This document shows positions 23,275 through 62,200 of a DNA stretch of 64,000 nt, piece by piece. The DNA comes from Siphonodentalium dalli (lineage: Eukaryota; Mollusca; Scaphopoda; Gadilida; Siphonodentaliidae): contig CP136065.1 of assembly GCA_032622095.1 (NCBI GenBank), positions 26,669,141-26,733,140 of the forward strand, written 5' to 3'. The notes under the pieces are model-generated. The model was not told the DNA's origin and ran no database searches. It saw only the letters and a program-made list of their open reading frames with translations. Positions within the stretch are counted from its first letter, which is position 1. Each line of letters opens with the position of its first letter. Both the position numbers and the translations under genes were made by a program.

Positions 23275-25056
23275 TATATATTGGCTTACTCGATGCCAAG
23301 TCAGCTTTTGACGTTGTTTGTAAAGAAATTCTTCTTCGGAAAACTTTCATTACATCAACTGACTACAACACATGGTATATTATTGATGATCTTCATTCTG
23401 ACTGTTCTTCTGTCGTCAAATGGGCATCCAAGAAATCTGCAAGTTTCCAAATATTATAAGGGGTGCGAGAAGGCGGTTTTTGAGCGCAAATCTTTACAAA
23501 CTTTATATTAATGATCTCCTACAACGTTTATCTGATCAACACCTTGGGATTACGATTGGAAATACAAATGTATCGGCAACTGCCTGCGCTGATGATATTG
23601 CCCTTGTGAGCTCAAACGTCACTGATCTACAAACTCTCATTAATGTGGCATACCAGTATAGCAGAGAACACCGGTATTTTCTCCAACCTAAGAAGAGTGT
23701 CATTATCAAAGTATCCCAATGTGGAAAGAAGAAGCATCCAGTTGAATCCTTCACTATTGACAACATAAATATGCCCAATGTTGACTCCTCACGTTTAGGA
23801 ATTATTCGTGCAACATCTATCAATAAAACTATCATGGAAACAATAAACAACAATATCAAAAAGGCTCGTCGGACTGCTTATGTTCTTATGCCTCTTGGAT
23901 TCCATGGTGAGAATGGCCTGGATCATCAAACATGTATACATCTATTTAATATGTATGTAGTTCCTGTTTAAACTTGTGGATGTGAAGTTTTAATTCCATC
24001 TCCGAAGCATGTGAAATTATTGGAGTGCTTCCAAAAGAAATTTATCAAACAGATTTTATCACTATCAAATGCAGTTGCAGACCCGGCTGTATATATTTTA
24101 TCGGGACTTTTACCTATTCAGGGACAAATCGACAAAAAAGTACTTGTTTTATTCAACAATGTTTGTAGACAACCTGACTCTGCCATTGAAAAAACGCTCG
24201 CCCATCGTCAACTTCTACATAAAGATGTCAACAGCAATAGTTGGTTCTCAGAGGTCAGAAAGCTATTTCTAAAATATGATTTATCGTGCATCTATGAGGA
24301 ACTAACATCACCACACAGCAAAGAGGAATGGAAACATCTAGCGAAGAAAGCAGTTAAATTGTACTGGAAAGATCGGATTGTCGCTGAAGCTGCTTTCTAC
24401 AGTACTTTAACACGTCCTAATTCATATTCGTATAATCCTGGGATAGTCAACCAGCTTCTGAATACCCGCAGTGAGCAACATCGATCCTGTTACAAACTAT
24501 CAACCAAACTTCGACTCGTTACAAATACATACTCACTCGGTATACGCCAACAGCGATACAATAAAAACTCAACTTCTGATATATGCTTGCTGTGTAATGA
24601 GGAATCTGAAACCATACAACACTTTCTACTGCACTGCAAATATATACAACCTGTCAGAGATCGGACACTCCCTCTAGTAGCTGAATGTTATCAGAGTATA
24701 TTCACTTCAGAATTCAAACTGTATACAGATGAAATAAAAGTACAATTCCTGACAGATCCTTCATCACCACCTGGCATAGAGACTGCTGATATCCACACTA
24801 TTGAGGACCTGCATCATCATTCATCCGACCTCTGTTACTACCTTCATTGTGCACGATACAGAACACTGTCTGCAAAAAAGTAACTTTTATAAATTAATAC
24901 ATCTGCGAATGCTGAATCTGCACGTCTCAGCAAATCTTTGTTTTATCTAAGTATTATTTTAGGCTGTTCGTATGTATAGACCACAGTTAAGTGCGGATTT
25001 TACTCGCAACACGAGGTTGTCCTAAACGGACGGATCGATAGCTAGAAGAAGAAGAT
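23275..25056 (+). pseudogene. 5'-truncated LINE: reverse transcriptase core to 3' tail
   Basis: The copy starts inside reverse transcriptase motif A (LLDAKSAFDVV, from about 23285). Motif B follows as GVREGG then SANLYKLYINDLL, and motif C is CADDIAL with its catalytic aspartates at 23591-23596. Next come the thumb region (ARRTAYVLMPLGFHGENGLD) and a C-terminal zinc-type motif, CLLCNEESETIQHFLLHC. The frame ends at 24883. The 3' end is probably the (GAA)n run at about 25045-25056. Damage is light: a TAA at about 23456, one frameshift near 23475, and a TAA at 23969-23971 inside an otherwise continuous frame (23420-24883). The 5' truncation is the usual result of incomplete target-primed reverse transcription. 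The clade differs from the LINEs at 34 kb and 46 kb. Confidence 0.85.
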
Positions 25057-32248: not shown

Positions 32249-35200
32249 CTCTTTATAATATGAAATTATTCGATTACTTTTGAAAAAGATGATCCTTTAT
32301 CTGACTACCTTGAACTTATACATAACTATGATATTCAATGCTCTATTATAATTTATATATAGGTTCTTTATTTATACGTGCACTAGATATCTAGAATTTT
32401 CCATATTGGCCTACCACTATACACTCATGAATCGTGATGAATGGCATACACTGCTTATTACCTTTGTATATCTACATGTACGTAGTACAAATGAATCTAC
32501 ATATACATAATTACAAATCCCATGATGGGTCACAAAATCTTTTGTTTTACTCGACTATTACACAACACACCATGTATACCAGACTTAAACTGGATGGTGC
32601 TCTATTATAGAAAAAATACCCATGATATGAAATGTGCCACTTTAACTGTGAATGTATGAATGAATTGACACATACGTACTATAACTAATGTATGTACAAA
32701 TTATTTGACGCACCAAATTTGTTTGTATTTACTGGTGTTTAGATTACAATGTATAGATAAAATGTCTCATGATGGCATGCATGTAGGGCATTGTAGGCCA
32801 CTTTAAATACCCTTAGATATGCGGATTAACCAGCACATACATCCCATGATGTGTCATAAAAGTTTATATATGACATGTGTCACTGAATTGGAATAACACT
32901 CAAAGCATTATGTCAGACTTAGAACCCTGCTTTAATATAGAAAAATGCCATGTGCCACCTTACCCCTTGGCCTTACTACACACATATAGGCCTACATATA
33001 CATGTACTGTATACCTCTTTGTATTTACTGGAATCATGATATCAGTCAGTATTATTATCTTTCCACATTACTTGTTGTATTTTTGTATATACTATATAGA
33101 TAACCACAAATAATGTATTATAATATGTCAAAAGGACAAAACAGAATATATGCATTCATGTGCATGTACAGAGGTATATAAACATACACAACTTCAAATT
33201 GGCTATACCGGTATATAAAGTAATTATCAATTATTAATTATTAATACTTACTTCACATTATGGTAGCCTACATATTGTACATTGCATTTGTTCATAATGG
33301 ACATGACTGAAACGTACGCCTTCAACTAATGATGTTTGCCAGTCAACTCAATACTGGGTCAATGGGTTAACCACCTGCAATGGATGCATATTGTAGCTAC
33401 CGGTACCACGTGTTTTAGTCGAATCCATTCGTATAGCATTGAAGGCATGTCTTTGAACAACAAGTGCTTCACGTTTCCTCAATCCGAATGAATGAATGTA
33501 AACACAGAATAACTTATATAACAAACGAGAATAGAAATTAACTCAAATTTGATGTCTTCCTTGCACACGACTCACGAGAGAACGCAGCGAATTCCCGAAT
33601 GCGAGGTCGTCGATCTGACCTGCAGGCTGTGACGTTTATTGTTATTGAAATAACTATGTCATGTTGTGGTACAGTCAGGTCCGAAACATTCTGAGCACAA
33701 TTATGTGCACTCCATTAAGACGAATTAATTAACGAATTTAGACTTCTTTTGAAGACAAAATAGACTTTTTCAAAGATAATCAGAAGTCGGTATATCATAC
33801 ATGTACATACACTCATGTATGCATTTTCGTGCTGTATTAATACGTTCTTGTTTATGTATTTTCAATATATTGGCTTATACCCTCATGCATTTAGCCATAA
33901 AGGCCTATGTTTTATCATTTTATGGAGTTATCTCTTTCTATCATGCCGTAAGTCCTCGTTGCGAGTCAAGATGACTACACGTCATGTCACAAATATGCTT
34001 TTTTTTGGCAATACTCACATGAAAAAATAACACGTGGAACTTATAATTTTAATTAACCGTCGACTGAATCGTATTCGAGGACTTACTTGAAACATATATA
34101 CCCGCCGAATACAACACATCATTAAAATAATATGTACTTCATATTACGGTTAGCTCTTGTAACAATGCACGGATTATACATATTCATACTTGCATTTTTA
34201 ATTCATTCTGAAGTGGAGGGCATATATATCATTCATTCCATTATAGGTCATATCCATGGCTACACATAACGTAAATCTGAGTGAGGTTCGGGATTCTGAT
34301 GAATATAACTTTACAATGAAATGGAACGACACGGAACAGGAACATGACGATTATTTTAATTCTGCTATTAATACCTGCAATGAATGTGCATACATTTCAC
34401 CATCACATGCTATAGATCAACCAAATAAAAAATCAAAATTTTCAATATTCAGCCTCAACTGTCGAAGCATTAACGCGAATTTCGATTCATTGTGTAATCT
34501 CCTGTGCGACTTAAAGTCGAATAACAATTCATTCGACGTTATAGCTTTAACGGAAACATTCAAAATACGGCAAGCATCACACTTTCAAATCCCGGGATAT
34601 CACCCTATGGAATTCAAGTGTAGAGATGATGACGATGATGGTAGAGGTGGTGTATGCCTTTACATAAAAGAATCAATCCACTATAAAAATCGACCCGACC
34701 TTAGTGAATTTATTCCACACGTGATAGAAACAATATTCGTGGAAATTAACCCAGGAAAAAATGACTCTCGGATAATCGGCTGCGTTTACAGACCAAATAC
34801 CGCGCCAAAGGCCAACATTGATCAATTTTTGAAAAAATTTGACGATATTCTAGAAAAAATTAATAACCACAAATCATATATATCAGGAGACTTTAATATT
34901 GACCTCCTCAATTTCAACTCGCATACAAAAACGAATGATTTCATAAATAACATTTTCACAAGAGGATTCGTGCCAAGGATAACTAAACCCACTCGAATGA
35001 CTGATCATTCAGCAACTCTTATCGATAATATATATACCAATAATCTACAAGGCGAATGTAAATCTGGTATAATCACATGCGATGTATCCGATCACTTCGG
35101 CATATTTTATTCAGAATCTAACCAAAAGAGACAAAACAGCCCCAATAATAACGAAACTATCACTAATCAAAGAAGTTTTAGTCCTGATAACATAATTAGA

Positions 35201-38200
35201 TTCAAAAATCTTTTAAAATCTTGTACCTTTGACTCCGTTACATCTTGTAGAAGTGTCGACCAAGCATATGAAATCTTCTTAGATATCTATATGAATGCAT
35301 ATGAACTAGCTTTCCCCATCAAAAGTCGACATATACCCAAAAAATTCATAAAACGCGAACCTTGGATGACATCTGGATTGATTAAGTCTAGTATTGTTAA
35401 GAACCAGCTATATTTACGCAAATTGAATAAACCCACGGAAACGAACGTAAATAAATATTTGAGTTATCGTACCTTATATAATAAACTAATCAGAAGGAGT
35501 AAACATATATACTATACAAATATTCTAGAAGTAAATAAAAATAACTTAAAGAAAACATGGGAAATACTTAAGGGTGCATTGAAGATAAATGGAAACACAA
35601 ATAATAGCCCAAAGACCTTTACTGAAAACGGAATAGAACTTGAAAATTCCAAACTCATATCGGAAAAGTTCAATGACTTTTTTTCCAAAATTGGGCGGGA
35701 AACTAGCCAACTCAATGAAAATGAAAATGACTCTCATTTTACAGATTTTCTTCATAACCGCAAACCAGACGACATCAATTTCAAAATAATTCCGACCTCT
35801 ATACAGGAGATCATCCTCACATGTTTCTCTATGACTGGGAAAGTATCAAGGGATTTCAATGGTCTATCAACTAAACTTATCAAGGAAACAATTGAGGTGA
35901 TAGCCCCAGCATTATTGCATATTTTCAACTTGTCTTTAGAGCATGGAATAGTCCCTAACAAAATGAAAATTTCTAAAGTAGTCCCGATCCCAAAAAATAA
36001 TATCACTCATGAAATTTCCAACTACAGACCTATCAGCATTCTTCCAGCTATCTCTAAACTTCTCGAAAAAATAATGCATAAACGATTATTAGACTTCTTA
36101 AATGAACAAAACATACTCTATAAACACCAATACGGCTTCCGTCCTAATCATTCAACCTTCCATCCTGTATTACACCTCCTCGATCAAGTTGTCTCAAATA
36201 ATGACAAAATGACAAGAGATTCCACTTTAGCTCTATTTCTCGACCTCTCAAAAGCATTTGACACGATAAATCACGATATTTTACTCCATAAACTAGATCA
36301 CTATGGTATACGAGGCACAGCATACTCATGGTTTCAGAGCTATCTGCAAAATAGAAGGCAATATGTTGAACTCAATGGTATTAAATCTAAATTAACGGAA
36401 GTGACGTGTGGAGTGCCCCAGGGATCTATTCTGGGACCGATAATTTTCTTAATATACGTTAACGATATGTCAAATTCGACAACCATGGATATCTTATCAT
36501 ACGCGGACGATACGACTCTAGTAACTGGTGGAAAAGATGGCATCCTTGTAGAAAGTTATGTGAATAATGAGTTACGCAACATATTTGCTTGGTGCTGTAG
36601 CAATAAGTTAGTGATCAATACTAAAAAAAGCAACTTTATGCTAATACACCCAGAGAACAATGATGACAAATGGAACTTTATAAAGGTTTACTTAAATAAT
36701 ACAGAACTAAACAAGGTAGGAAATCTTGAGCACGAATCCTCCACAAAATTCTTAGGAATCCATATAGATGAAAACCTGACTTTCAAAAAACATGTGTCCT
36801 CTGTTTGTTCTAAAATGGTGAATGCCATATACCACATCAATAAAGTTAAACACTTCTTTCCTGGTAGCGCACTTAAAACATTATATTATGCTCTAATACA
36901 AAGCCATCTCGTTTACGGTATTCAAATATGGGGACATGTCCCTGCGGTCAAAAAAAATTTCATGCTTCAAAAACGCGCGATGCGAGTTTTATGTAATAAG
37001 AAATATAGAAGCCACACAGAACCTCTCTTTAAAAAAGAAAATATACTCAAAATCTACGACATCCACAAAGTACAAGCGGCTGTTTTCATGCATGATTGGT
37101 ATCATATGCGCTTAATAGAATCATTCACCGACATGTTTACCAAACGCAAAACCGGACCAGAAACCCGGCAAAAGCACCCACTATTTTTAAAAAAACCAAG
37201 AACATCTTGGTCCCAACAACTACCATTCCATTCTTTTCCAACTATATGGAACAATTTAGATAACGAATTTACATCATACCAATCCAGACACACATTCAAA
37301 CGGCGTTTACATGCCGATGGCATTAAAAAATATGCTGCAACAATTAAATGCAACAATCAAAGATGTCCCGACTGTGTGGTAGCTCGTCAATAAGTGACTT
37401 CCACAATATCGCAATCATCAACCTCACTCAGCATATTCCTACTCGACTTACAAGGAACATCCCACTGACAAGAAAGAGACAAACCATCGAGTAACCAATA
37501 AGCGATTTATCTAGACGTATACCCTCCATGTATATAATCCAGTTAAATGCAACCATTGTGTGATACATAATTATATAGCCGTGCATTGTACAAGAAATCT
37601 TGACCGCCTATCGTAACATCTTTTCTTCTTTAAGGGGATGGCAGTAAGACAGTCTAGTCTGACTATGCCACCCCCTCGAATATACAATATAATATTTGTC
37701 AAATGTATTATTCATTAATATGTGTATATTGAAATAAAATATCCTATCCTATCCTATCCTATCCGGTGATCAGGTTTAGCATATCGTGAATTCAACAAGT
37801 ATAGAATAGATACATTCAGCTTAGTTTGACTTGAATGTGAATACTACTAGTTTAGTGAAAGGAACATCTTTTGATCAAAGATATACCAGTAATATATTCA
37901 ATTTATTGAGAAATATTGCCATGCATTGCTAATTTTATCTTTGCAAATAAATAATCTGAAAGTGAAAGCATAGATGGGTGTACACACAGGGCACTCTATA
38001 TTTGTCAATACGATTCATGTCGGGCACAAGTTATACCCTTGAAATTGGTCCAACGTTCACGATCCCACTGAGACTGATCTCGTGGAGATAAGCAAATAGT
38101 GCACTTATTTCTTGGGACTGAAATAAGCTCATATTAGCATTATTTAGATATGAAATAAGATATATATTGGCCTAAACGCTGGTTATTAAAACGGCCCAAT

Positions 38201-41200
38201 ATGGGACTATTTCAATATGAAATAAGCCCATATTGTGCTTATTTGCACGAGAAAAGACTGAAATTAACACGAATAAACCAACTCACGATTTATCGGATGT
38301 ATGCTCTATATAACGCGATTTCACTGTGCCCACGTCATCCAACATAATAACGGGTATTAGACAACTATGGGCTTATTTCATAAACAAATAAGTCAAATAA
38401 GAACTTATGTGAATATTTTAGTCCAATTTGAACCTGTTCACGTGATATTTTCGATGAGAAACCCAATTGACTATTTTTTGGGACCTCTCGGCAAATACAG
38501 AAGGAAACCACGCCCCTTCTGCAAGTACTTCGTAGAACTGCAAGATAACTTGTACCATTCCATGTTGGGGCGCTTTGTTATTTTAATTTTTAGAATTGCA
38601 TGGGAATACCGGGAAAATGTAGTATTGCCACTGGGCAATGAAAATATATTAATATGCTTGCCTATTAACTCGCTTTGATGCCGAATAACACGCATTCGTG
38701 GTCCCCGGACTTGTTCCCAGTGTTTAGCCTCTGCGCAAATGTCCAGCAAGTAGATACTATTAAGTACCACCATACCTATTCTGTCGGCGGAAGCGCTACG
38801 TCGCGGAGTCGCACGGAACAGTGCACGGAGCGGCTGAGCCAGGAACGATAATAGTGTACACCCCTGATATTGGTTCCAGATTCACAATAGAATATCCAAT
38901 ATTTTACAATTGTGAACACGCTTTCCATATGCCCCATTGCAAACGTTTCATTGTATACTATTGTTTACACGATAATCCCCAGGTACTGAAGTATCTTGAA
39001 CGGAAATATTGACTTTTGTTGTAACTATGCAAAACTCATTTCTCATGCAGGAATTCTCCTTTAAATCTTGTGTTTTCGTAACAATGTTCAGAACGGCACT
39101 AAATATTTCAAATGGTTGATCACTGTACCAATTGCTATTTCACCAATGGGAATTTGTAGGGAAGCTTTGTTATGTACTTTTATGGAACGGATAAACCGAC
39201 AATGCTATTGGCCAACCAGGGCCCAGTGTCAATCTTATCTTATCCTATAGTTACATTCTATTTATATTTAGACCATTGTAACAAAGTTTACTGTCTTGTA
39301 TTTCAGCGAATGATCCACCCGCAATAACAATTACTACCAACTTACCTATTATAGAACGTGAGCGACATATAGCATGTAAGTTTAAGTTACTACCAACATA
39401 CCTATTATAGAACCTGATCGGCATATAGCAGGGAAGTTTGAAATGCGCAACTGGTCCATTTGTTCTATCTTGCACATTATATTTCCGAAAAATGGGCACT
39501 TTATACTGAAGGTCGTGTCTCCGCAATTTATGCGCTATGCTCGACTTACTATTTTCCCAATGCCCAGTCTCTCCTCCTGTCAACAACAACGTGAAATATT
39601 GGGCATATCATATTGCAGTGTGGATTGTGTATTATGTCAGGTTCAATAGTCAGAATTCAACTTGAGATTTTCATGGAAAATCTCAGAAAATACCGATAAC
39701 GAAATATATATTCTTTTCCGATTGGTCAGGTTTGTTATCGGAAAGATATGTGGTGTATCTATATTGTTTGATCTACATTTATATGATTGATAATAAGACA
39801 CGCATATTTTACGATACAATATAAAAGTAACAATGAAAACGGACTTGTGGGCGAGCAGTTCCCTCAGGAATTGTCCAGATGATAGTCTATGGCTCTTTTT
39901 TAACGAATTATCTTAATATAATACATCCTTGTTCCATGTAAAAACGGCTTAGATTATGGCATCATTCATTCATTCAATTTTTCGAATGTTTATATTTCCT
40001 GAACATCCATCCAGACGAAAAACATAATTTGATTACTGTTCATAAATTCAATTTAGCGAAGACGCAGTTAATGGTTGACTGAAATTTATCTTCATTCTAG
40101 CTGATCATGAATATGCCATCCTGAGTGGTACCGCAACGGACACATTAGGAGATCGAGTAACTGTGTCTATGACACCTTCATTCACCGGCGACATCCTACA
40201 CTGGCGTCTGCAAAATAACAGTCGCAATCCACATGACGTCGACTTCATCGTGTACGTCTATGGGTATCTTGATTATGAAACAATCGTGAGTATCTACGCT
40301 AATTTCAAAATCGGGTTCAAGTCAGGAATGTACCTAGAGGGAGGGTCTCATTGGTGTGTTCAACGCTCCAACTGGGAATTCAACTCTTCTTGAACCAGAC
40401 CGAAATTCCCAAGAGTCCAGCTGCAAATATCGTTTGCGTCCTTTTGGTTAAAATTGTTCAACTGGTCGAAGTTTCCACAATTTCACCAGCATTCGACATA
40501 TTCCAGCTAATACACGTTCGATTCCAACAGTTTACCGAATTTATGGACATATTGGACTTCTGACATAAAACAACATATTTCACACTCGACGCGGCGAATG
40601 GCCGTAATGGAATAAACATTTGCTAGTCAAGTCATGGTGATACAGACGTAAATACACAGAACTACACGATTTTGTTAATGGGTTTGACACGGTAAGGGTG
40701 TTAGCGCAGACGGATAGAACGCATATAATGAGAGGCGCAGCATCGAGTTCTATATGTCTGCGATGACACAAATGTCGTATCAACAAACCCATTAACACGT
40801 TCGTTCTGTGTTTATTACACGTCACCATTCTAGAATCCGTGCTTTCAAAAATGCAGGCTTACGAGGTTTATATAGGCACATAGAGGGCTTGTTTTGTCAT
40901 TGTGATGATGCTTTTTATTTTATAGTTCCGGTCTCATGGTTGAGGCGAACGTCATTTAAGGTTCAACGAGATGTTTATGGAACTTACATTCCATACGGAT
41001 TTGTAAATATGGAACATCAATGACATTACTTCTAGGAACAAGCGTGTAATAATTTATATAATAGGTAATATTTGTAGAATATGTCTACCGCCCCACTGCG
41101 ATGTGGTAAGAGTCCCCTAATGTGGCACCCTTTTTTCGCGATGTGAATACCGTGATAGATGGTTTGTGAGTACCTGGTCATGATGGTACTAGGGCAGTCG

Positions 41201-44200
41201 TATCATATGAGTCATCGACCTGCGAGTACGGCTTAGCTCATAATCACGTTGGTCCTGCATTTCTTTAAGGCGGATGGTTGAGTTGACCGTCATTAAGACG
41301 GGTGGTCGACTTGACCCTCTTTCAGACGGGTGGTTGAGTCGACCCGGCTCAATCAATCGGCTAATCACGCCTCACCACGGTGTTTCAGATTCAATTTCTG
41401 TCATAATTATGTTGAATTATTAGGTCTGCAGTTGTGTGTTCTGTTTTTTCGTGTATGTTGTTTTGTCATTTCTCTTTGTGTTTCGTCTTGCTGATTGTCA
41501 GAAGTATAAATCTAGTACTATTCACATCGGTCTCACTGTGGGGAGGTTGCTTATGGGATAACAGTGTGGTGTTTTGTGATTTCGGAAAGGTACATGGCGA
41601 ATATACTGTGGTAAATTTAGTCTCCGCCGTCGCCCATTAACGGGTATTTGCCACAGTATATTCGCCATGTACCTTTCCGAAATCACAAAACACCACACTG
41701 TTATCCCCATTCTAATGCTCTTCGAACTTAAAAACGTTATTTAGACAAACAAATGCCTCGTAATTATCAACGAAATGTGCGGCCATAGAAAACATTCAGC
41801 CAATTCACGACTTTTTATTTTAAATTTAATGCGCTAGATAAAATATAGTCCCTCAATTACCATCGCTCTTATCGTTAAAAATGCTGATAATCATGAAAAA
41901 TTGCCACCTCAAATAGAAATAAATATGCACAACAATCAGTTTCTGCATGTACCTGATGTCTTTTTCAGATGTTTACCACTTAGAAATTGCGGTTTTGATT
42001 TTACCGCGAACTTGAAGTTGAATTGAAACAATGGGAAATTGTTTACTCAATGCGATGTATTTCACGCCGTGTCTGTCGCGGTTTCATGTCAAGAAATTTG
42101 GTCAAATGATATCGAGGCACTGACATTGGTGGGATATAACGGTGTGGTGTTTTGCATTTTCTGAAAGTACATGTATACAGGGCGAATGTACTGACTGTCA
42201 GTTTTCGACAAAAGCGACGTAGCTGGTTTGTTTATATAGCAACGAGCTAGTAACGGAATTCAATAGCAAGGGTGCCAACTCTATAATCTACTCCGTAACG
42301 TCGCCGGCATGTACTGCGTAAGGGTGACGTCATGGAGTGAAACGGAACAGTGAGCGGGGCTGGATTGGGCATGGCCGAGAATAGGAATTCAGCTAACGGC
42401 AACGTTGGCGCGTAGGAATATCTAACATTGAAGCGGTGAACCGGACTATACATTGCGACAGGTTATTGAATGAATAACCCCCCGCAAATATGTGGTGTTT
42501 CCGGGGGTATATTAGCCTAAGTGCATTAGAATAAAGGTTTGACAGTGGCAGTCTTTGGCCCGACCATTCGAATGGTAGTCAGGGGCATCTGCTGTGCTCA
42601 CTTTCGATTATTTGCTACTCATCTGGCAACTCAGACAAAACATAAGGCGTAATGACTCGATAACTTTCAATGGTGCTGAGGTTTATCCTCAGCCTTTGGC
42701 TTTGATCCGAATGTCAAGAGACCATCTGTATTTGTCATTGATAAAACGTTACAATTTCGTATTGCTGGACAATTGAAATGTCACCAATCTCGACGCTATT
42801 CTGTCATTAGCATATATTGCACAAACATCAGTGTTGGTTATTCCTAATCAGACATTTCATAGTAGCAAAGCTGTGTGGAGAACCCTTCGATATTGCCGAT
42901 TCTGCGGAATTTGCACCACATGGAGTTACAGAAATTCGTAGATTTTCCAGACTGTCGGTTGGTTTAATAATATTTATTCCCAATAATAATTTGTTACAAT
43001 ATAATATATTGGCAATTCATGTTACCATGTTCCTTGTGTATGGGAGTGGATTCGGCTGTAAGCCTATATGGCTTATATATGCCGTCTCCACAAGTGACCT
43101 TATCATCGGTGGACATAATATAAAATGGTGCGACAAAGCAAGCAATATTATGCTTGCATTACTCGAGTCGCGTCCCGTCGTGGAGTTGTCGGAGACAGGT
43201 AATGAATTGGTATATTCATGTAATAAATGTTTACACCATGTCTAATATATTATAGTATGGGTTTCATAGAATGGGTTCGTAAGAGCAATACAGACACATA
43301 TATACAGTCATATATACAACATTTCTGTGTCACCTGTCGTGTCGGTCATCAGCTATTTTAATATATCCATTTATTGGATATTTACTTAATGTAATTATTA
43401 TTGGGCAGTGCCATATAATCTGTATATATGTTAGCTCGAAAAGCGTTCTGTCATGATTATGAATTTCTGGACTGTTTTAAATGTCAAAATATTTTCGCTC
43501 AGAGTATTTGAAATCGTGCCGTGAAGTGCGCTCTCAATGGTTGTTCTTTCCAAATTACCAGAAAAACATTCGTTTCTTTGTCTACTGTATACTGGGCAGT
43601 GGAATAAGAAATGATTCTCCGTTTCATCGCTTCCACACACAATGAGGACTTGATCTGAGATAATTTTCACATAAGTCTTTATTAAGAAAACTACAACCAA
43701 GTCGCAATCTGCAGTGATGTATTTGCGCTGGGCGTGAGTAATAGTAATAGTGGTAAATATAAGGTTCTCTATGGTTATTATCCGTGCTTCCTATTGTCGA
43801 CTTAAAGTCACACAACGTTTCACACTTCCGCACATTGTCTGGGGGTGTGTTCCACATCTCAACGGCTGGGGGAAGAAAGGACTTTTCGTATGACACAGTA
43901 TCACGAGAAGGGTTAGTTAGGTGATGCTTTCTCTGTGGATATTGGTGCATATTCTCTGTTGATCTGTGGAACTAAGGTATATAGATATGAGGGTGTCATT
44001 TTATAGAACATTTTGTAGAATTTGGCATAATTTGGAGATTTTCCGACGTTCAGACAATTTTTCCCATCCAGTTTCCTTTATGAGGTTTTCATTACTGCTG
44101 CTTTTGGTTGCTCCAGTTACTATTCTCGCTGCCTCATATTGCACTTTTTCGAGCATGTCGCTTTCGCCATTAGTCCAATTGTCCCAAACAGGAGAAGCTT

Positions 44201-47200
44201 ATTCTAAAATAGGACGTATGTAAACAAAATAAATTCTTTCAAGGGTTCTCCTGTCTAGGACAAATTTGTTCTTTGCAAGCAAAGCCACTTTTTTGGCTGC
44301 TCTCTTTTGAATTTCAGTTACATGATGGCTCCAGTTACCATTGTTGTTGAATGTCAGTCCTAGATGTTTATAATTAGACACAGTTTATATTACTTCGTCG
44401 CCCATTATTAAAGGTTTGTGTATAGGTTTGTTATCTTTTCGCGAAATTATCATTGACTTTGTCTTAGGGGCACTAAATTTGACATTCCACTGTTTGGACC
44501 ACCTCATAATTTTTTCTAAGTCAGAATTCATTACATCAGCCGCTAAATCTGGATCTTCTATTGATAGATAAATTGATGTGTCGTCGGCGAAGAGCTTTAT
44601 ATTACATGTGAGGTCAATATAATTTATGTAAACTAGGAATAAAAGAGGGCCTAGTATTTACCCTTGAGGGACACCTGCCAGGACGGGTTTCCATGATGAT
44701 TGCACCCCTTCAATGCATACCCGTTGCCTCCTCTCGCTCGAGTAGCTAGACAATAATGTCAAAATATTCCCCTCTACACCACATTTTTGTAATTTGAAAA
44801 TTAGTCCTTTATGCCAAACATTGTCGAAAGCTTTGCTAATATCACAAAATAGGCATGTGATTTCCTTTCCTTCTTCTAGATTTGTAATTATATACTGGTA
44901 TATCTCAGTTAATTGGTATACGGTGGAATCTTTTGGTGTGAATCCGGATTGCAAGTTAGTGAGGAGATTATTATCCCTTAGGTATGTGGAGAGACTTTTA
45001 TTGATACATTTCTCAAAGACTTTAGAAATACAACTGAGAAGTGCGACTGGACGATAGTTACTCGGGTCAGAGGAATCACCTTTTTTGAAAATGGGCGTTA
45101 TATTCGCGCGTTTCCATTCGACTGGGAAATGTGATTTTTCAATATATTTATTTAATAAATATACGAAGGGATTTGCGATGGAGCTAGCACATTCTTTCAA
45201 GATCCTTGGACTAATATCATCTGGGCCACTGGCTTTTGCTATCTTTAATTCTTTTAGTGCGGAGTATACTTGTTCGCTCGTGATTATCATATTTTCAAAT
45301 CTGGATTCCGTTCTGTATGTCATATTTGGTAACCCTGCATTTGACGAATCTGTCAAGGATGAGATTTTGCAAAAGAAATCGTTGAGTATTTCAGCTTTTT
45401 GGAATGGATTGGAAGTAAATTCTATACCACCCTTAAGGGGTGGTATCGGTTTAGATCGTGGTTTTAGAAATTTATTTAATGTCTTCCACCATACCGATGT
45501 CTCTGTATCTTTGCTACCAAGAATGGTTTGTCTTTTATCAATATGCGAACGTTTAGCTACTCTAATGGCGTGTACTGTTTCATTTCTTTTCGATCGGTAA
45601 TTATTCCACGAATTCTCTGTATTTTTGCGTTTTGCTATTCTATATGTTCGCTTTCTTTGTCTTATTAATTTGCGAATTGATGCATTCATCCAATCGGATT
45701 CATTAGTTCGAATTGTAATTTCCTTGTGGGGAATATATTTTTCCATTATATTTTTAAATTTAGTTGTGAATATTGATGTCAGGTCCACTGTGGTTGCGTT
45801 TTCCATATCTGAGAGGTAATTCCAGGAGGATAATTCTTTATTCATAGAAGAAAAATTTGCATTATCGTAGTTCCAAATTGTCCTCCTGAAAGTTCTCTCG
45901 TATTTCAGAGGATTTAAATCTAAGCTCAGTACAACTGGGCAGTGGTATCTTACTAGATAGGAACGAATGTATCTTCAACCTCCGTGCTATGAATAAATTC
46001 CTTTTTGTTTGTCATGAAGATATCAATCAACGTTGAAGAAGATTCCGTGAAATGGGTTGGTTCTTCAACCAATTGCGACAGCCCTTTAAATGCACAGATG
46101 TCTTTAATTTTATTTGGTCCTGGAGGTAGCTGGTTACAGTTCAGATCACCGGTTATGATTACATGAAAATTGAGAGAGGTTGCACACTCGATGGATGTTT
46201 CTATGTTATCCCATACATTATTGGGGGTATTGGGGGGGGGCCTATAAAATGTACCAATTAATGTTTTATGTCTTTCGAAGTTAACTTCAATCCAAACACT
46301 TTCTAGATTGGGTATTTCTAGGTCAAATCTTCTCCTATATGGTAGGTTGTTTTTAATGTAAGTCACGACTCCACCTCCAGTGGTTTCTGTTACTCGGTCA
46401 CATCTTTCGGGCAGTGAAAGCCGGGGATATTTAATGTTTCATCATCAATGTTACTTGACAGCCAGGTTTCAGTGAAAGTCACCACATGATAGGCAAACGA
46501 TTCGGCTCGAACCAAGTCAATTTTATGTCTTAAACTTTGAATATTCATGTGCATAAATTTAATTGTTGAATGATCTGATGTTGTGGAAGTGTTATTCTCA
46601 GGTCCTGGATGAGGGTGTACATCTGACGCAATTAGTAACAAAATAAATATTATTCCCGCGAGAGAAAATGTAATTGCTAATTCTGTGGTGCATATGCCCA
46701 GTGTATGTTTGGTCAATGATCGTTTTTATGTTTCGGACCCTAGTTCTAAGTGTTTTCAGGTTGTCTAATACTTTTTCTACCAATGAAAATAACATAAAAT
46801 GAATTGTCAGGGCCACCAAGAATGCTGTGTAAATCGGCACTCCGTTTAGTCTTGATTGCACTATTGCCAAAGCTGCATATGAGGAGATAACACTTAATAT
46901 TTTCCTATTTGGTAATTTCATCGATCTAGAATGATTGAGACCTATTCGCACCCTGTATGTCATTAAATCAACCATTATCATATGTGTATGCACAATATAA
47001 ATACACGCAATGAAAGCAAGAATGGGTGGAAATGAATAGGTCTGAATACATTTTGTAGACTCTACACAATTTTGAAGCTACATATATCTGACTTGACATG
47101 TGGCACGTAAATGCAGTGTTGTATTGCTCGTACGTTGGTAAGGTTTTACTCTCACAAGGAACATCACAAAGAAAATGAAATGAAACATAAACAACAATAA

Positions 47201-50200
47201 AGTATATGCATGTATACATGAGTAATGGCAAGATGGTTGTCGTGACTGAGTTATGGGGCGAATTTTCAGTAAATGGGTTATTATTTATTTGCGAGGTAGT
47301 ATTCGATATCGGGATCAAAGAGTCGTGCGTTATTCTTTAATTCGAATTTTTATTTTTATTTAATTTCACATGCGGAAAGCCGTTTAATGGTTCGGATGGC
47401 CCCATCTTATAGATTCAGTTAACATGAGAGAGACAGCGATATAACTCTAGATTGTGTATGCTATTCAGAATGATGTCACACAACGAAAACAGTCTAATGG
47501 ACGAGCGATAACTCTTGATTGTGTAATCTATACAAAATCGTTTCAATAAAATTGCAAATTTTCGTTATCAAAGAGCAGTAACTCCATCATTAGATGTAAA
47601 ACTGTAGACTGTCGGTTGGTAATATGAAGATAGATTTCACTAAATAAAAAATTGTAACACTATATAAAGTGTAGGTGCTCGGTGTTCTATTTCTGGTCAT
47701 GGTCATACTTTTTGTTTTAATCTGTCAAGGTTCACATGTTGCAATGGATTGTTAATATAATTATGGATTCAAGATTCAAAGAGAAACATGTAAGGTCGAG
47801 AAATATAGTTGGTTCTCAATTCCACAGGTCGCTTACTAATGCTGCCGCCACTACGGAACGTATCTTGATGCTAGCACTGTTGATTGTAAACTGTCTTGTC
47901 TTCTCCATACCGTACATGTTCGATGGGAACATACACTTATCACATTTGGATGGCCATGAGGATTATTTGTTCGCGATATCAAACGGGTCTCCGATTGTTG
48001 TAGAGTACGTGCCACCGCAAAAGAAAGCAAAGCACCCCTCATTCCGGTAGTGGTCCAACTATTTGTTACTCACCTTATTCTTTGTCTGCAGTATGTGTAT
48101 ATATAGATTTGTAACAGGTGTGGCCTATTGATACAGTTAGTGTTTGTATAGATTCTTATTGTAGTCTGTTAGATTCTGGGCTTATGTTACGGGCCCATCA
48201 TATTGGAGAGGGTACAATGCCGTTCGGCTGACATAAGGTCAGCAAGGGTCCATGGGCTCTGTGGTGCTAGACCCGCCTGTCGACAGGGCACATTGTGGTT
48301 TATACGAAAGGTGCAACCGAGACCAAGACTGACTGCCAAACAGCCAAAGGCGCGATTATAGCGCAATAAAAAAAATATGTCGCGCTTATTCTATGCGATA
48401 TTGAGCGCAAAATATTGCGATATTAAGCGCGCACAATTTCATACAGACCCGATAATGCTATATTTATATTAGATAACTACTGTGCATATAGTGTACACAT
48501 AGTGTACATATAGCATTTACAACTATAATTATATACAGATCTAAAACATTGTCTCTGTTTATGCAATAAACAATATAGAAGAAGCAATAATTTGCTTTAA
48601 ATGTCACAATTTTGAGCGCAAGATGTCGCAATATTAACGCGAAATATTGCGATATGAAGTGCAAAATATTGCAATACTATCGCAAGCGGCGCGCTTATGA
48701 GCGTTTCCACTTGTAATATAATTGCGATATTGGGCGCGAAAATAGCGCGCTTAATATACCACTTCTTTTGGCTGGTACTTTTGGGCATATCAGGTGTACA
48801 TACATTATATCAATACGATGTATAAAAGTTTGAAACATACAAATTCCTCGCAAAACAATTGGGATCCCCTGACAAAATAAAACATGTTCATTGTAGATCC
48901 CCGGCCAGTGGGCCATGTCATGTTTCTAATCATTTACGATTAAGTGTTATGATACATGTATTTACAATTCAACCCCGTGTGGTGCACAGTGTAATTTAAT
49001 AGAAAGCGTTATTATTCATTTGATGCTTGTGCAAACAATATGTATTCCCAGTTCCGTCCCATTTGCACACCACCTTGAGTGAACAAATTTTCACGAGTGT
49101 CCTACTATTGTAAATGTCCAACCGATCACGCCCACTCACTGTGGTTGGAAACTCCAGTCCAAACACATAACTGAAACTTTTCGGTCTAAAACAAATGATT
49201 ACTGGTTTGGAGATCAAACTGTAGGAACAAATTCATGCAGGTGATGAAAACCTTATATATAGTCTCACCACAGACCACTTCTCTGCGTCCCTGGTTAGTT
49301 ATAGTGTAAGCAAAAATTATTTAAAACTCAAACATAACACAAACAATACACACATAGATACAGATGGAATAAGAATCATTATTTGACAATAAGCTAAACG
49401 CTTTTTAAAAACATATTATGGACTTGTTTGATAAGTTAGTATTCAGGCGATGTGTCAACATTGGAAAGTTAGCATTCTACAAGCATCGCCGAAAATTTCA
49501 ATGAAATCGACTATACAACTCTATAGAATTCATAGTCTGAACTACGCTCAATTGTAAATATTTAGATTTTGATTCAGGACGCAACTATCGGTGATAGACT
49601 GACACAAATAATTTCGCAATCGAGAGTCATTGCATTTGATTAATAAATAAAAATGACGGTGTGTGTTGTCAATTTGGATTCAAGTGTTGTGAAACACTCA
49701 GGTATGGTGATCAAATATAAATTTGTAGAATAATCTTGCTCAAAATAGTTATTTTTACGAATATAAATCCGAATTTACAACACAAACCGTCATTTTTATA
49801 TGTCAATTAAATCCAATGATTCTCGGTGGCGAAATCATTTGCGTTCGTCTATCGCCGTTTGTTGCATCCCGAATCGAGATGTAAATAGTTACAATTGCGC
49901 GTTGTTCAGACGATGTTTTCTATGGAGTGGTGTGGTCCATTTCGTTGAGATCTTCGGAGATGTTAGTAGAATTGTTGATACAGCGCCTGAGTACTAACTT
50001 GTCGGTTTAATGCACCCGAACAAGTCCATAATATGTCTTTAATATTGATGTGTCCCTGATTCTGTTGCCGTGGAAATATTTTGACCATCCCAACTATCGA
50101 TGCCCATTCACTTCCCCATTTGGGGTGACAAGAAGACAGTCTATCGTGACTGTATGGCTATGCCACCCATCGAATAGATAATATAATGTAACTGCTTAAT

Positions 50201-53200
50201 CTAGTATGTATTGATGTTATACACGTACGTGCATATTGGAAAATAAAATATCCATCCTATACTATTCATTTAGTTGAGCGTGTTCGCACATTTTACATGT
50301 TCTTCAAGATATTTCTCGTTTTTTTTCATTTCAGATTGATTTCACGATAACAATGAAAGCGACAGATTCGCATAATACGGTACGTTCGTGGTCTAATGTC
50401 CACTGATTTAACATAATACGGTATATTCGTGCTCTAATGCCCAATGATTTAACATATCACGGTTCGTGATCTAATGCCCACTGATTTAACATACTACGGT
50501 ATGTTCATGATCTAATGCCCACTGATTTAACATAATACGGTATGTTCATGCTCTAATGCCCACTGATTTAACAGAATACGATATGTTCATGCTATAATGC
50601 CCACTGATTTAACATAATACGGTATGTTCATGCTCTAATGCCCACTGATTTCACATAATGCGGCATGTTCATGCTCTAATGCCCACTGATTTAACATAAT
50701 ACGACATGGCCATGCTCTAATGCCCACTGATTTAACATAATACGGCATGTTCATGCTCTAATGCCCACTGATTTAACATAATGCGGTATGTTCGTGCTCT
50801 AATGTTCACTGATTTAACCATTTCTTTATTAAATGGAATATCCCATTAGAAGTATATATTGGAATGGTCTATTGTTCATCTGGAGGGCTGTTCAAAAAAT
50901 ATAAGCAGACGAAGATATAATATGTCATTTATTGAACTTATTATTTTAACATTTCCTAAGGCGACTGCTGATCAATGAGTATTTATTAAATAACGGATTG
51001 AATAATTTATCGCAGAACAGTGTGATTAAACAACACACGGTTGCCTTATGCGAAGTTCGCTTCATGGTCAGAGGCACAGCCCATGTATTTAATGCACCCA
51101 ATACAAACCAATGATCGCATGGGCACAATGCCAACTGAAAGAATGTGACAGTCAAGTAATATTGTCGAAAATATCAACCAATTCGACCGCAATATTTCAG
51201 AAAATAATATTCCGCCAACGAGTTTCTGCATCTCATTCATATAAGAATAACGTTGTGTGGTGTCAATTTGGATCATTTTGATGAATAATATTCATTACCA
51301 CACTTAATCACCCCACTGGAGTGTTCCAAATAACTTCTCAGAACTGCCTTGATTGATTCGAAGGTATAATGTTATCATTTTGAGCTAGAGACTCTAGTCA
51401 ACAAGAGCTTATGTAACTGGGAAATGTATTCCCCACGAACTGAAATTTTACTATTTAAAACAAAAACTTTTTTTGCAACATGCATACATGTATTTGATTC
51501 CTAATATGTCTTATAAAACACTTTGTAACACCAAGGGTGCTATTCACCGGCTGGGTTTATAATATAGTCCAGGTAGTTTTACGAGGCGACGCTCAATGCG
51601 AAGCTGTCGGTGGACATATCGATGGGAAGAGATCGCCGCGCCATATAGGATTATCCAATCAAGGTGATTGGCGTCAATCATAGATTGACCACCGGTCACA
51701 TAAACATGCTGCGTGTAAGGCCCGTTCCAAACGACGGATTTTTGTCGACTCGAATCTAATACCAGACCCACAATTGTATTAAATGCGTATAAAATGCGAC
51801 GTTTGAAACAATTAGATCCGTGTCAGACGCATCACAGACGAATCTCCGTCCAATTCAGACGAATCTTCGTCGGTGATGCGTCTGAAATCCGTCTTGGTTT
51901 CAAACGACGGATTTTTGACGACTCGAATCTAATACATGTGACGAGAAGAGCCGAAAGTTGCCGAAGAACGAATGCAAATGATATGATAATGATATGATAA
52001 TGGTATAATAATGAGGGGGCTCCCCTTATCTGAGGAAATACCCATGCACATGACGTCATAAATTTTGTCGCACGCTCTCTTTGTCATAAAGAAAGATATA
52101 TCTATAAGCATTGCTTAGGTGACATTGTGAAAATTGTAATTATTTTGGTAGTTTGATTCCTCAACGAACATGGCATGTCACTGACTCACATCTTATAATG
52201 GATATAGTATCAATGTTTTAGAATAATCCATATATACCGGTATAAGGGGTAGGGGTTGTAGCAACTGATTTATAATAATTCATATAGACCGATATTCCTT
52301 ATTGTAAGGAATAGGGGTGGTAGTCTCTGATGTATAATAATTAATATTTAGCGGTATTACTTATTATAAGTGGCAGAGGTGGTACTACTGATTTATAATA
52401 ATTCATATATACCGATATTACTTATTATGAGGGGTAAATGGGTAGTAACCTCTTATTTATAATAATTCATATATTCAGGTATTATTTGTTATAAGGGGCA
52501 GAGTGGTAGCCTATGATTTATAATAATTTATAAATACCGGTATTCCTTATTATAAGGGGTAGGGGTGGTAGCCTCAGATTTATAATAATTCATATAAACC
52601 GGTATTACTTATTATGAGGGGTAGGGATGGTAGCCTATGATTTATAATAATTCATAGATACCGGTATTCCTTATTATAAAGGATATATAGGTGGTAGCCT
52701 ATGATTTATACTATATAATTAATATATTCCGGTATTCCTCATTATAAGGGGTAGGGGTGGTACCACTGATCTTATTTATAATAATTCATATATACCGGCA
52801 TTACTTATTATGAGGGTATAGGGGTGGTAACCTCTTATTATAATAAATCATATATTCCTTATTATAAGGGTAGGGGTGGTAGTCTCTGATTTATAATAAT
52901 TCTTGTATACCTGTATTCACGTGCATGGTATACACATATATGGCAATTGGTTGCACGATCTAACATTTATTTGTAGCGCCTATTATATTATATTATATAA
53001 CTATATGTACTATATACATCCTCATATACATATGCACATATATTCGCGCTGCAATCGCGCATATATTTATACATAATTTATACTGTATTTTAGTATATAT
53101 ATGTATAACATACCGGTATATATAGGCCTCTATATCTACGCGTGACCATTTTGTGAAGGTAACATGGAGTGAACCTTTAAATAAATCGACCGATGTATTA

Positions 53201-56200
53201 GATTCGACGCGACAAAGATGCGTCCGTCTGAAACACAATTGACCGCAGACGCATCACCGACGGATTTAATACAATTAGATTCGAGTCGACAAAAATCCGT
53301 CGTTTGGAACGGGCCTTACAGTACACGTTTGTACACATTTCAACAATGAGCAACCGAGGAAAAGGACGTGGGGCAAAATATACCACCGACGACATGAGGG
53401 GGTCTACAAAAAAATCCGTATATAGGGCCGGGGTGGGTGGGTGGTCCAGAGGCCGAAACAATCGTGCTTGTAATATTTTTCCAAAATGGGTTTTTTTCAA
53501 ACAATTTACAAGTACTGACCATGTAATGTTGTTTGTAAGCATGTTAGTATCATGTTGGTTGGCATATGGCTATATAGACAGCTATAGTGACTATTTAGCC
53601 TCATATTTAGCAACATTCTGGATTTCACAGGATCCCGTCCCACTTCTCAGTGGAAAACCGTAATTTAGTAAAAAAAATTAATGTATTACCCAGTTGTATT
53701 ACCCGAATAAAAGTAATACAATAAAAAAAACTGTATCACAAATACTACATGAACATGGTGAATACTCAATGATGACTAGATATCATTGACCCGATTGTTG
53801 CATAATGTGAAATTGAAAAGGGTATCTCATAAATTTCTAATGTCTGAAATACTGTAATTCATTCCTTCTGGTTACTTCTCATCTTTTTAATGATTGCAAG
53901 TAATGTTAATTTGCAGCACTTATCCAAATAAAACTGAAATGGTTATGATGAATGGCCGTTACTGTTTATTGTTCAGACAATCCCAACTGAAGGTGACGCT
54001 ATTCTTCTTGAATTTACGAACTTCATCTTGAAGCTTAAATACTGCTCAACAAGACTAAACTACATGTACAATACTAATTGTATACTGTTATCGCTTACAA
54101 ATAGATGAACTGAAATAATGTGATGCATTCAGATGCTTTGAGAAATGACGTTCTTCAATGTCTTCAAAGTTCAAACTAAAATCAAGAATATAATCTGACT
54201 GCAGACTCTAGTGCACAAATATACATACAAATGGTTGAGTTATAATAATGCAAAATGTGTTTGCGGATGGAACCAAGTTGGTAGCTCTGGTATGTATCGA
54301 CAGGCAAAACCTGTGATATGCAGTAATATTTGCATACATCCTTCCCGTATCAATCAGGTCTATCACCATACCAAACCACTTCAAAATTCGACAACCGACA
54401 CTTCAACTTATATGGCAAAAACTTTGTACGGATTGAATTTCATAAACAGGGCCCATGGATAACTCTGGTAGGCATTGATACTCACAATCCGTGATATTAT
54501 GCATATTCGTTCCCCATTTCTGGTCCGTCACATGTCATAGAGCATAAAAATATGACAACCGACTCTTGAGTTATGATGCAAAATGTTTGTACAGACGGAC
54601 GGCTCGAGACGTCAACTATATACCGCCGACTAATATCGGGGGTATAATAACCATATATCTATGTGTATACCCAACCAAAACAATTCCCCTCCTCACCCAC
54701 CCCGGTGGATAAGACTAAAGAGTTCTTTGATCATGCACAACTAATTGTAGAACCCCTGACCTGTTTACCACTATTTACACTGGCCAGTGTTCTCTGTCAG
54801 ACTAAACACGCTCGATATATTAAGGCTATAATGCGGTCTAAGGGCAATTTGTGACATGCAGTGTACCTACACAATGCTTTATTATTGTTGTTAGATACTG
54901 GAAACACCAGGAAACACCTGGAAATGCAGTTTATTTTTCGTTTTTCTGGCCTGTGCTTTACCGATTAAGGATGTTATTGTTTGAGTCTTAATTTTACACA
55001 CTTTGTACCAAAAAAGGATAGTGGAATGGGATTGAAAGGCAGTTAACACAGTTATTGAAGAACGGCGTCCTCGGGGTCGGAAAAAACCTTTTTGGGCCCT
55101 ATATGTGCAATTGATTTCCAGCCCCCCCCCCCCCCCACTGCCGACGAGCGTAACACTTGTTTGGGCATTGTGGAGAGAAGAATCAAAATATTAAAAAACA
55201 AAGAAACCGGCACCATTCACCAGCGCCGGAAAAATGATGCATGGAAAGACATTTCTTTGGAAATAGCAGGGAAATATCCAAACAGAACCAAAACACAAAC
55301 AAAATTCTTCTTAGACGTTATCTTCTTGGCTCTTCATTTTCACACTGCGCTAATTAAAAAACCTCATTAATATAATCATTCTGCAGATATATAAACGCAA
55401 GCATGAGTCTCCACACAATTATACCCAAAAATTATACAGCTGTACATGCCGATTGTGGCCGGTGAGTGTTCATGAATTAGTCGTAAGACGGCGTCAATTG
55501 ACAGGTGACAAATCTGATAGATTGGATCAATCACACCATCGACAGCGTGTGTCGTTTGCGCTAAAGCAAAGATACCTTTGCGTTCAGCCGCTACCATATA
55601 AACTACCTGGTTTATAAAATAGTCTCGCTTGGTGAATAGCACCCCTGATGTTTCTGCTATGGTGAACATTATGCAAATTTGTCTTTATGATGAACTTTAT
55701 GCAAATTTGTCTTTAAAATAGTTTAATACATTTGTTGTTTGAAGTGTTGTCAGGAAGAGGTAATAGAGCTGGTTTTGTTTTAACCCTTCCATGACTGGAT
55801 CTTCATGAATTTTTGCGAGAACCCTTTGCCAATATACTGGCCTAACAATATGTACCACGACCTTGTAATCCAGTGCATTATCTTATATATGCGGGGCTCC
55901 CTATGGGAGAATCGCATATATAAGAGAATTCACTGGCACAGGATCTATAATTATGCACCAGCGCATCGCCCGTCATCAAGGTTAATATATGTTATTGCCA
56001 TCTATATTGATATAGTCATACGTTATGATATAAACTCTCACTTAGGTGATGGCAATTGTTAGTACAGTCATATAAAGGGTATTCTACTTTACGCAATTTC
56101 CATGTCAGGTGTTATGGTATACAGAAGATAAACATTCTAGTCCAGGAGATATTGGTCGACCTCTGCACCCCCCCCCCCCCCAGGACTCAACTTCACCCCA

Positions 56201-59200: not shown

Positions 59201-62200
59201 AATCTGTCCGCCATTGTGGGCGCCATTTTGGATTTGGGGGACTTTATTTGGATATGGTATAAGGAAAGTTCTTCGCCTAGTTGTTCCCAGCTCACAATAG
59301 TAAGCAGGTGTTGAGTTTTCATGACAATAATGCTCACTGATGTTAAAATCGTTGATTTTTTTATTTCTGGTGGCCATTTTGGCCGCCATCTTGGATTTGG
59401 GTAAATATTCCTCAACTCAGGTATAAGAGGAATCCTAGCTTGAGTATCTCCTGCACATATATATGCATGGGTGTTGTTATAATAGCAATAACATTCATTG
59501 ATTCGAAACATTACATCGCGTTATTAACGTAGATTCGGCTTTGACCTATTATACCGGCATTTGGGAAAACGTGATATCGGACAAAAATATCCCACAATGA
59601 ATGTATATTATGGTTCCCATGTGGTCGACAATGACTCCACTATTTGATAAATGTATAACATGACGCAAAGATGCCAACATTTTCTCACAGAGACACACGA
59701 ATGGTGGTAACGTGTCAGAAAAATAGCATATTTTCACATTTCGGAAAATAATTGGATTCTTATGTCGGATTTTTGGCTAATTTGTAAGGGTTGTATATTA
59801 GCATAACGAATCGAGCGGAAAACAAGACCGCATGTGATATCATCTTTACTATAACGGCGATCAAAGAGACCTGGTGCATTAAAAAACAATGGCCGCCATG
59901 ATGGACGCCATCTTGTCTGGAGTCTCTGCGGCCACTTTTTTTTCTTGTTAACAAGTGAAAAAAATTAGAGGAGACATTAAGAAAGAAAATTAGTGGGGTG
60001 AAGTTGAGTCCTGGGGGTGCAGAGGTCGACCAATATCTCCTGGACTATTCAGTATAGTTTTAGGTTAACAATTTAATTATTTCATGTTGGTCAGTAAATT
60101 CTGTTTTACTATTTTGGCAATATGCTAATATATAAACATGATCTCTCTTCCCGGGTAACACCTACAACCTGAAGGTAACTTCTGTGACGCGAAAATTGAA
60201 GGTATGTATACATGGTAATAATAGAGCTGAATGAGTCATTGTCGCATAATTTGGACCTTATTTGGTGGTATGTACGGGGTACCCAGTTTTGGGAATCGGT
60301 TGTTTGTTTACACATCTTGACAGAGAGTGGTGGATTTGTGTTATAGAAATTAGCACCATTCTAAACGTTATATGGCCGACAAAGGGTAAATATGAAACAG
60401 GAATAACATCTTAAAGATGACTACACATGTGAAATATGATCATATGTAAGATTTTGGTATCAAGTGTGCGCTGGTAAAACATCAAAGGTCAAGGTGGGTA
60501 CCAAACAAAATCACCTTTTCGTAAAGCTGGAATCTAACAAACCAAAATGTGGCGACAATGACCCAATGAGAGCATCTTTCTCACGACACATGAATCAGAC
60601 TAATATTCCGATTCCAAACTTCTTTCAGGTTTCGTCCACATCTGCTGGGGTTTTTATCACGAACGAAAATGACGAGATTCCCGTTTTCCTCAATTTGCCT
60701 TACAAATGGGATATAAAGGAGGTATGTTGTCCTAATATCTCTTCTGATGAGCTATGCATGTCACCTCAAAGCACCACTAATCATCAAAAAGTCGTATGTA
60801 GATGAGTAACCGGCGTCTCTCGTCAGTATGTTTACGCCCTTTTGAAAAAATGTCGTATTATGTAATCAGTTTGCCCGGACGTCCGTCCGTCCGTTAACAT
60901 TTTTGGTTTCCGATCGATAACTCAAGTTTGGATTATTTTATCCAAAACATACAAAGTTGGTATGTGTATTTCCCAGCCAAAGATACAGGCCAAGTTCGAA
61001 TACGGGTTCCGTCCAATTATTTGTGCACGAGTTGCGGCCATTTTTTGACTTACTTAGAATTTGACCGATTTCAAAACGTTTCGGTTTCCGACCGATAACT
61101 CCTCTTTGGATTATTTGATCTGAACCAAAAATGGTATGTTTGTTTCCCACCTAAAAAATACAGGCCGAGTTCGAATATGGGTTCTGTCCAATTCTTTTCG
61201 CATGAGTTTCGACCTTTTTGACCGCATTTTGGCATTGAAATAAGGGTATATCAGATATTCTTTGTATGCTCAAATTGTTATTGTGTTTTGCGGTGGTACC
61301 ATTCAAAATGGCTAAAGATCGTATTTTTCCAGGCCCTATAGATTCTTTTGTTTCATGTCACGGTAAATATAAAGAGCATTTGACTCCCTTCCGTTCATAA
61401 ATTTCTATCATTTTAATATGTCTGTTTAGAACATACTAGGTGCATATATAAATATCTAGCTCATTAAACGGAACTATTTTTATAACGTGAAAACACGTGC
61501 AATTACATGCATGTTCTAGTTAAAATTTACGTGTTGTGCCAAGTAAATTGGCACACGTTTTAACGCGCAACCATCTATCAATAATTCAGATGAAGATTAG
61601 TGGGCTACATGTAACTTACTGTGCTGCTTTGTAGAATCCCCATACTATAGATGAATTTCAGATAACAAATAAGAATAAATTAGGCTGATTTTGTGAGGAG
61701 AAAGCTGTACAAATATAAGCAATGAATGTTGTTTGAGTGTTCTGTCAATCAAACACACACATCCTACATTCAGTTCTTAATTGTTCGCTGTCGTTGACCA
61801 TACAAAATCGTCCAGTGGTTAATGCAGCACTATACGGTCACCACTAGATCATCGTTCACCTACGATTGGACAATTTCTTCGGCACTTTGCAAAACTTGCG
61901 AAAGTGGTACAAATAGTTGCGGTATTCTATAGTCTTTAGATTATTGGATCCTGCAGTACGACATGTCACAATCTAAACCTGGCTAAGAAATGAACATTAA
62001 TCATGAAAATGCTACTGCCTTCCAGAGTAGCTGACTAACATATTTTAACATGTGAGGAGGGTGTCTTCCTCTAGGTTACTTTATAAATGTCTATATGATA
62101 TTGTCAAATAGCTTAACTTGACAAATAGAGGAATCAAATATTGCCCAGTCCCACTCCTAGCTCAATGGTGAGTAGAAATTCAACGAGTTATTTGAATAAT

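Follow-up and report, generated by a model that had tools for sequence, protein, structure and literature searches.

Tandem repeats that run across exon-intron boundaries have been described in amphioxus, where they were named 'mirages' and occur in Adh3 and in the globin genes BflGb6 and BflGb9 (PMC3087553). The repeat unit is 10-72 bp in Adh3 and 150-160 bp in the globin genes. Splice signals are kept in many, not all, of the copies, the ends of the clusters escape homogenisation and length varies, while regular splicing is apparently undisturbed. Exon-boundary minisatellites are proposed there as raw material for intron gain (PMC3087553). Two human cases are related. The repeats of the IFI6 (6-16 or G1P3) minisatellite act as splice donors, with two downstream units used and three mRNA species produced (PMC4526556). 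In human duplicated genes, minisatellites (internal tandem repeats) lie at exon-intron boundaries and can alter splicing (PMC2812944).

An array of this kind is present in the window, the whole stretch of 64,000 nucleotides of Siphonodentalium dalli DNA that was analysed.

50371-50817, forward strand: minisatellite of 11 units, all of 41 bp except copy 3 (37 bp), cut in register

Tandem Repeats Finder gives 11.0 copies of period 41 at 50371-50818 (89% matches, score 672). The array unit starts with CATAATACG, which is followed at once by the donor position, and the exon at 50335-50379 ends in these same 9 nt. The unit consists of 9 exon nt and 32 intron nt and therefore extends across the exon-intron boundary. 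An earlier note on this DNA had described an 11-fold 41-bp repeat that includes the last nine exon bases and the donor, and Tandem Repeats Finder and the register cut bear this description out. The donor position is GT in seven of the 11 units (copies 1, 2, 3, 4, 5, 7 and 11), GC in two (copies 8 and 10) and neither in two (copies 6 and 9), exactly as had been counted, with the reservation that copy 3 carries a 4-bp deletion, of ambiguous exact placement, that touches or adjoins its donor. The GT of copy 3 comes after this deletion and thus may not be the original one. When two units were compared with the window by blastn, the matches outside the array were short and weak (best E 0.012), so that within the window the 41-bp unit is local to the array.

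Like the amphioxus mirages in their published description, the array is made of minisatellite-like tandem duplicates across an exon-intron boundary and has a splice signal in many, not all, of its copies, and the 41-bp unit falls inside the size range of the Adh3 mirages. The host differs from Adh3 and the globin genes covered there, being a cadherin-like gene with 11 copies at a 5' splice site. The IFI6 minisatellite has a 12-bp unit and the reading frame is kept. The array resembles it in that minisatellite repeat units carry donors, and differs from it in its 41-bp unit and in that each use of a downstream copy would meet a TGA, so that no coding product would be kept. It shares with the human duplicated-gene repeats their position at an exon-intron boundary, whereas those repeats belong to primate-specific paralogues with transcript support and the present array is known from sequence alone. 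A literature search of open-licence papers gave no cadherin case of a boundary minisatellite among the matches listed. Since boundary arrays have been described in amphioxus and human genes, the structure is already of a known kind. The earlier statement that no standard element does this gives way to the named amphioxus mirages and to the IFI6 minisatellite, which supplies used donors (PMC3087553, PMC4526556); the array clearly illustrates an oddity that already has a name but has seldom been described.

The array follows an exon that the following evidence supports as a coding exon of an animal cadherin-like gene. Four predicted exons are considered.

40101-40285, forward strand: upstream predicted coding exon, presumably exon 3 of the earlier note, with an open frame, splice signals and a cadherin match when joined
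50335-50379, forward strand: 45-nt predicted coding exon, exon 4 of the earlier note, phase 0-0, supported by acceptor, profile rank and PDB match
60629-60721, forward strand: next predicted coding exon, 93 nt, donor GAG/GTATGT
63861-63953, forward strand: following predicted coding exon, 93 nt, donor GCG/GTAAGT, reading as the opening of the cadherin repeat that follows

The upstream exon holds 2 nt and then 61 codons that end in ...YGYLDYETI, with the donor ATC/GTGAGT. The 45-nt exon has a 3' splice site with a strong polypyrimidine tract and CAG, and a generic splice-site matrix ranks its acceptor first among the window's 5954 AGs, both strands counted. The junctions 40285/50335 and 50379/60629 are both in phase 0 and on one strand. 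When the first three exons were joined and searched against PDB with phmmer, Cadherin 23 was matched at a whole-sequence E of 6.9e-9, a value to which several repeats of the same chain contribute; taken singly, the best-matching stretch of the top chain reaches an independent E of 1.6e-4. LDYE, ATD and NEND..PVF follow one another in the conserved order across both junctions. Joining 40101-40285 to 60629-60721 without the 45-nt exon leaves a best PDB phmmer E of 0.18. With all four exons joined (less the last residue of 63861-63953) CELSR1 becomes the top PDB match; its whole-sequence E of 1.8e-16 is summed in the same way, and its strongest single stretch has an independent E of 0.023.

The Pfam scores are lower. 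The three joined exons match cadherin (PF00028) at 16.0 bits (E 0.017), below the cut-off of 28.8, and the unrelated family ERMP1_C at 17.5 bits (E 0.0031), which is above cadherin and below that family's own cut-off. With four exons cadherin reaches 20.1 bits (E 8.6e-4, cut-off 28.8) versus 16.5 for ERMP1_C. The join of 40101-40285 and 60629-60721, and either piece alone, have no Pfam match up to E 10. The first hint of a cadherin came from a PDB search with three single open frames, which gave nothing at E < 0.07 and Cadherin 23 as the best cadherin match at E 0.084. Raw-frame Pfam scans, in which stops were read as X and forward-strand blocks were taken with gaps of up to 8 bases, found no cadherin at E 1 or better in the forward-strand frames of the whole window or on the reverse strand of 47000-51999.

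A control set was made of all in-phase open AG..GT candidates of 12-240 nt between the outer exons (n=885), unfiltered for splice strength, and each was inserted and scored against a cadherin profile built from 13 of the 14 cadherin stretches shown for three PDB chains from the three-exon query. The 45-nt exon ranks first of the 885 at 37.6 bits, and its variant ending at a later GT comes second (33.8 bits). The next unrelated candidate scores 24.5 bits; the score without an insert is 15.9 and the mean is 16.8 (s.d. 1.8). The profile fragments come from other proteins and are the joined query's own matches, so the test depends in part on that query. A second cadherin profile was made from 10 of 13 stretches from the PDB matches of the four-exon query. 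Among 3648 scored candidates before 40060 there was no convincing exon upstream of 40101 (best 9.3 bits), which leaves the number 'exon 4' unconfirmed. The existence of a 45-nt exon directly before the array, as had been proposed, is supported by the PDB match with it and the loss of that match without it, by its rank and by its acceptor.

The surroundings are rich in mobile elements. A truncated LINE 3' end lies at 50122-50265, shortly upstream of the 45-nt exon (68%, E 6e-8), and stretches to about 50044 by permissive alignment; its family is that of the LINE ending near 37765. This LINE has an open frame of 1048 codons at 34247-37393 on the forward strand, with reverse transcriptase and endonuclease (RVT_1 E 6.9e-39), and a (TATCC)n tail at 37740-37764. 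Upstream of it a coiled-coil-like frame of 334 codons (28282-29286, forward strand) may be its ORF1. The stretch 49405-50042 is a foldback element that aligns along its length with its reverse complement at 72% and has similar fragments at 51202-51273. Remains of a second LINE, with broken reverse transcriptase frames read by eye from translations, occupy 43431-46725 on the reverse strand. A reverse transcriptase remnant with zf-RVT lies at 23400-24900 on the forward strand (E 3.1e-5 and 0.0012, both below the Pfam cut-offs), and a weak Myb/SANT-like match at 55143-55265 on the same strand (Myb_DNA-bind_5 E 0.02, below cut-off). A long near-perfect palindrome was spotted by eye at about 41568-41700. 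The idea that the 45-nt exon is a false exon amid these elements was overturned by the protein test.

A second minisatellite (52241-52917; 62-bp unit, 10.9 copies) lies within an element at 51714-53320 whose 47-bp terminal inverted repeats are perfect. Kinship of the 41-bp and 62-bp units is suggestive only, with 15 of 18 bases in common and a score equalled in 37 of 2000 shuffles, where the observed score was taken on one strand and the shuffles on both. The 45-nt exon was also considered as a decayed repeat copy and this was rejected, the 35 nt before the array resembling the unit weakly: depending on the scoring scheme, 416, 750 or 1047 of 9750 window positions and 43, 30 or 123 of 2000 shuffles equal the likeness, and the longer stretch 50300-50370 does no better than the 35 nt.

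The seven GT donors of the array differ in predicted strength, scored in bits by a generic matrix and in kcal/mol for pairing with U1.

50380-50385, forward strand: copy 1, authentic donor GTACGT, 6.90 bits, U1 -4.6 kcal/mol, in-frame splice to the next exon
50421-50426, forward strand: copy 2, donor GTATAT, weak at 3.86 bits, U1 -4.4, close to copy 1
50462-50467, forward strand: copy 3, donor GTTCGT, weak at 2.25 bits, U1 -3.3, with 4 bp missing there
50499-50504, forward strand: copy 4, donor GTATGT, 7.41 bits, U1 -5.0, slightly above the authentic donor
50540-50545, forward strand: copy 5, donor GTATGT, 7.41 bits, U1 -5.0, slightly above the authentic donor
50622-50627, forward strand: copy 7, donor GTATGT, 7.41 bits, U1 -5.0, slightly above the authentic donor
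50786-50791, forward strand: copy 11, donor GTATGT, 6.54 bits, slightly below the authentic donor, and U1 -5.0, slightly above it

By the matrix, good donors (6.5-7.4 bits) occur only in copies 1, 4, 5, 7 and 11, and the GC and lost copies score near or below 0 bits. U1 scoring of each unit places copies 4, 5, 7 and 11 ahead of copy 1. The authentic donor is in the top 1.8% of the 7452 GTs in the window by the matrix, while 10.7% of them pair with U1 as well or better, and its U1 pairing is the weakest among the four donors of the gene seen in the window (-4.6 versus -5.3, -6.4 and -8.8). With strong downstream copies and an authentic site unremarkable in U1 pairing, donor competition is credible on paper, and substantial misuse may occur given that copies 4, 5 and 7 slightly exceed an authentic donor that pairs with U1 more weakly than the other three. 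RNA folding predictions give copy 1 no advantage over the strong decoys. Greater accessibility of copy 1 in folded RNA, hinted at in one context (0.45), was gone over six, where the means are 0.38 for copy 1, 0.36, 0.37, 0.31 and 0.34 for copies 4, 5, 7 and 11, and 0.58 for copy 2.

Splicing at any later copy has a simple consequence in the reading frame.

50404-50406, forward strand: in-frame TGA, retained if splicing uses copy 2 or later

Readthrough in the exon frame into the intronic part of copy 1 gives VRSWSNVH and then this TGA, which lies upstream of the donor at 50421, and all ten downstream positions meet it first. Copy 1 is thus the sole array donor with a continuous frame, and since splicing at a later copy keeps the TGA, truncation comes after 8 extra residues and before frame counts. 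The downstream GT donors add 41, 82, 119, 160, 242 and 406 nt, none divisible by 3. The earlier expectation that downstream use shifts the frame is correct for the GT copies and is secondary to the in-frame TGA. The truncated product of later-donor use would probably be removed by nonsense-mediated decay.

Variation among the copies bears on whether the downstream donors are maintained. Across copies 2-11, the GT columns contain 2 and 3 variants against a column mean of 0.59, and GT is the most variable adjacent column pair, only one of the 41 pairs (itself) reaching its sum. Four of the ten downstream copies are without GT. The columns of the 9-nt donor as a whole are unexceptional, with 7 of 41 circular shifts as variable. 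The variability of the GT pair gives no sign that decoys are maintained. Selection against decoy donors was considered and found not significant: of the events counted by eye, GT holds 3 of 20 (p 0.071) and the 9-nt donor 8 of 21 (p 0.070). The simplest reading is that the decoy donors are free of constraint. The T-to-C change of the donor is common to the adjacent copies 8, 9 and 10 and was therefore probably spread by array turnover.

Unit column 29 is T in the terminal copies 1 and 11 and C in copies 2-10, and column 18 is G in copies 1, 2, 3 and 11 and A in copies 4-10. The bases common to both ends fit a founding duplication with the exon end and amplification inside. This makes growth from the 5' splice site, as earlier suggested, plausible, the direction of growth being inferred from these two columns. 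The terminal copies may be set apart from the inner ones, as they are in the amphioxus mirages, although copies 6 and 9, both internal, show in the distance table about the same divergence from the other copies as copies 1 and 11 do.

We regard the array, with a probability of about 0.7, as a minisatellite of the mirage type, a by-product of tandem duplication whose copies are passive and in which splicing falls mostly at copy 1. A 41-bp stretch, made up of 9 nt from the exon's end and the 32 nt that open the intron, would have been duplicated in tandem into the intron and then amplified to 11 copies. Copy 1 would be the donor most likely used, as the only one with an uninterrupted frame, and the downstream copies would be passive duplicates, some strong enough for occasional use. 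Each leaky downstream splice would then bring in the eight residues and the TGA, with presumed nonsense-mediated decay. The earlier proposal of an array of competing or decoy donors is kept in part: four downstream copies (4, 5, 7 and 11) are about as strong as the authentic one, and upkeep of decoys is unsupported.

The same near-equal donors and the stop met on every downstream use would suit a poison-splicing VNTR, in which downstream donors compete, the stop-bearing share is degraded and the number of strong copies sets cadherin output. The use of IFI6 repeats as donors (PMC4526556) is a precedent; the decoy GT is, however, not conserved, and amphioxus mirages are reported without disturbance of splicing (PMC3087553), so that we consider this reading unlikely. 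Its extension to a heritable dial, in which repeat number sets gene expression through diversion to the stop-bearing exon or through U1 snRNP shielding of the 10-kb intron, is very unlikely. U1 snRNP shields introns from premature 3' end formation. Were such a dial real, near-equal decoys would divert a copy-number-dependent share of the cadherin pre-mRNA to the stop-bearing exon.

Two further readings change the relation of exon to array. An older intronic minisatellite may have come first, the exon end later moving to the donor of the first repeat. The last residues of the exon lie in a stretch that is variable among cadherin repeats, where a shifted end would be tolerable, but copy 1 agrees with the other terminal copy as a founder would, and the rest of the exon resembles the unit no more than chance (416 to 1047 of 9750 positions), which makes this order of events a slender prospect. 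That the 45-nt stretch is no exon and the GT motifs fall in the array by chance would fit the dense mobile-element setting, with a LINE 3' end about 70 bp upstream. Against this stand the best acceptor of 5954, rank 1 of 885 and PDB E-values of 6.9e-9 and 1.8e-16 versus 0.18, and we give coincidence hardly any weight.

As a mirage-type minisatellite, the array would extend the short list of genes with exon-boundary minisatellites in PMC3087553 to a cadherin-like gene. Its limits are well defined, and it offers a natural series of potentially competing 5' splice sites at a coding exon. Because the frame stays uninterrupted from the first of these sites alone, the array may be used to study by which rules the spliceosome picks one of several near-identical donors, and it could show how minisatellites at splice sites are tolerated.
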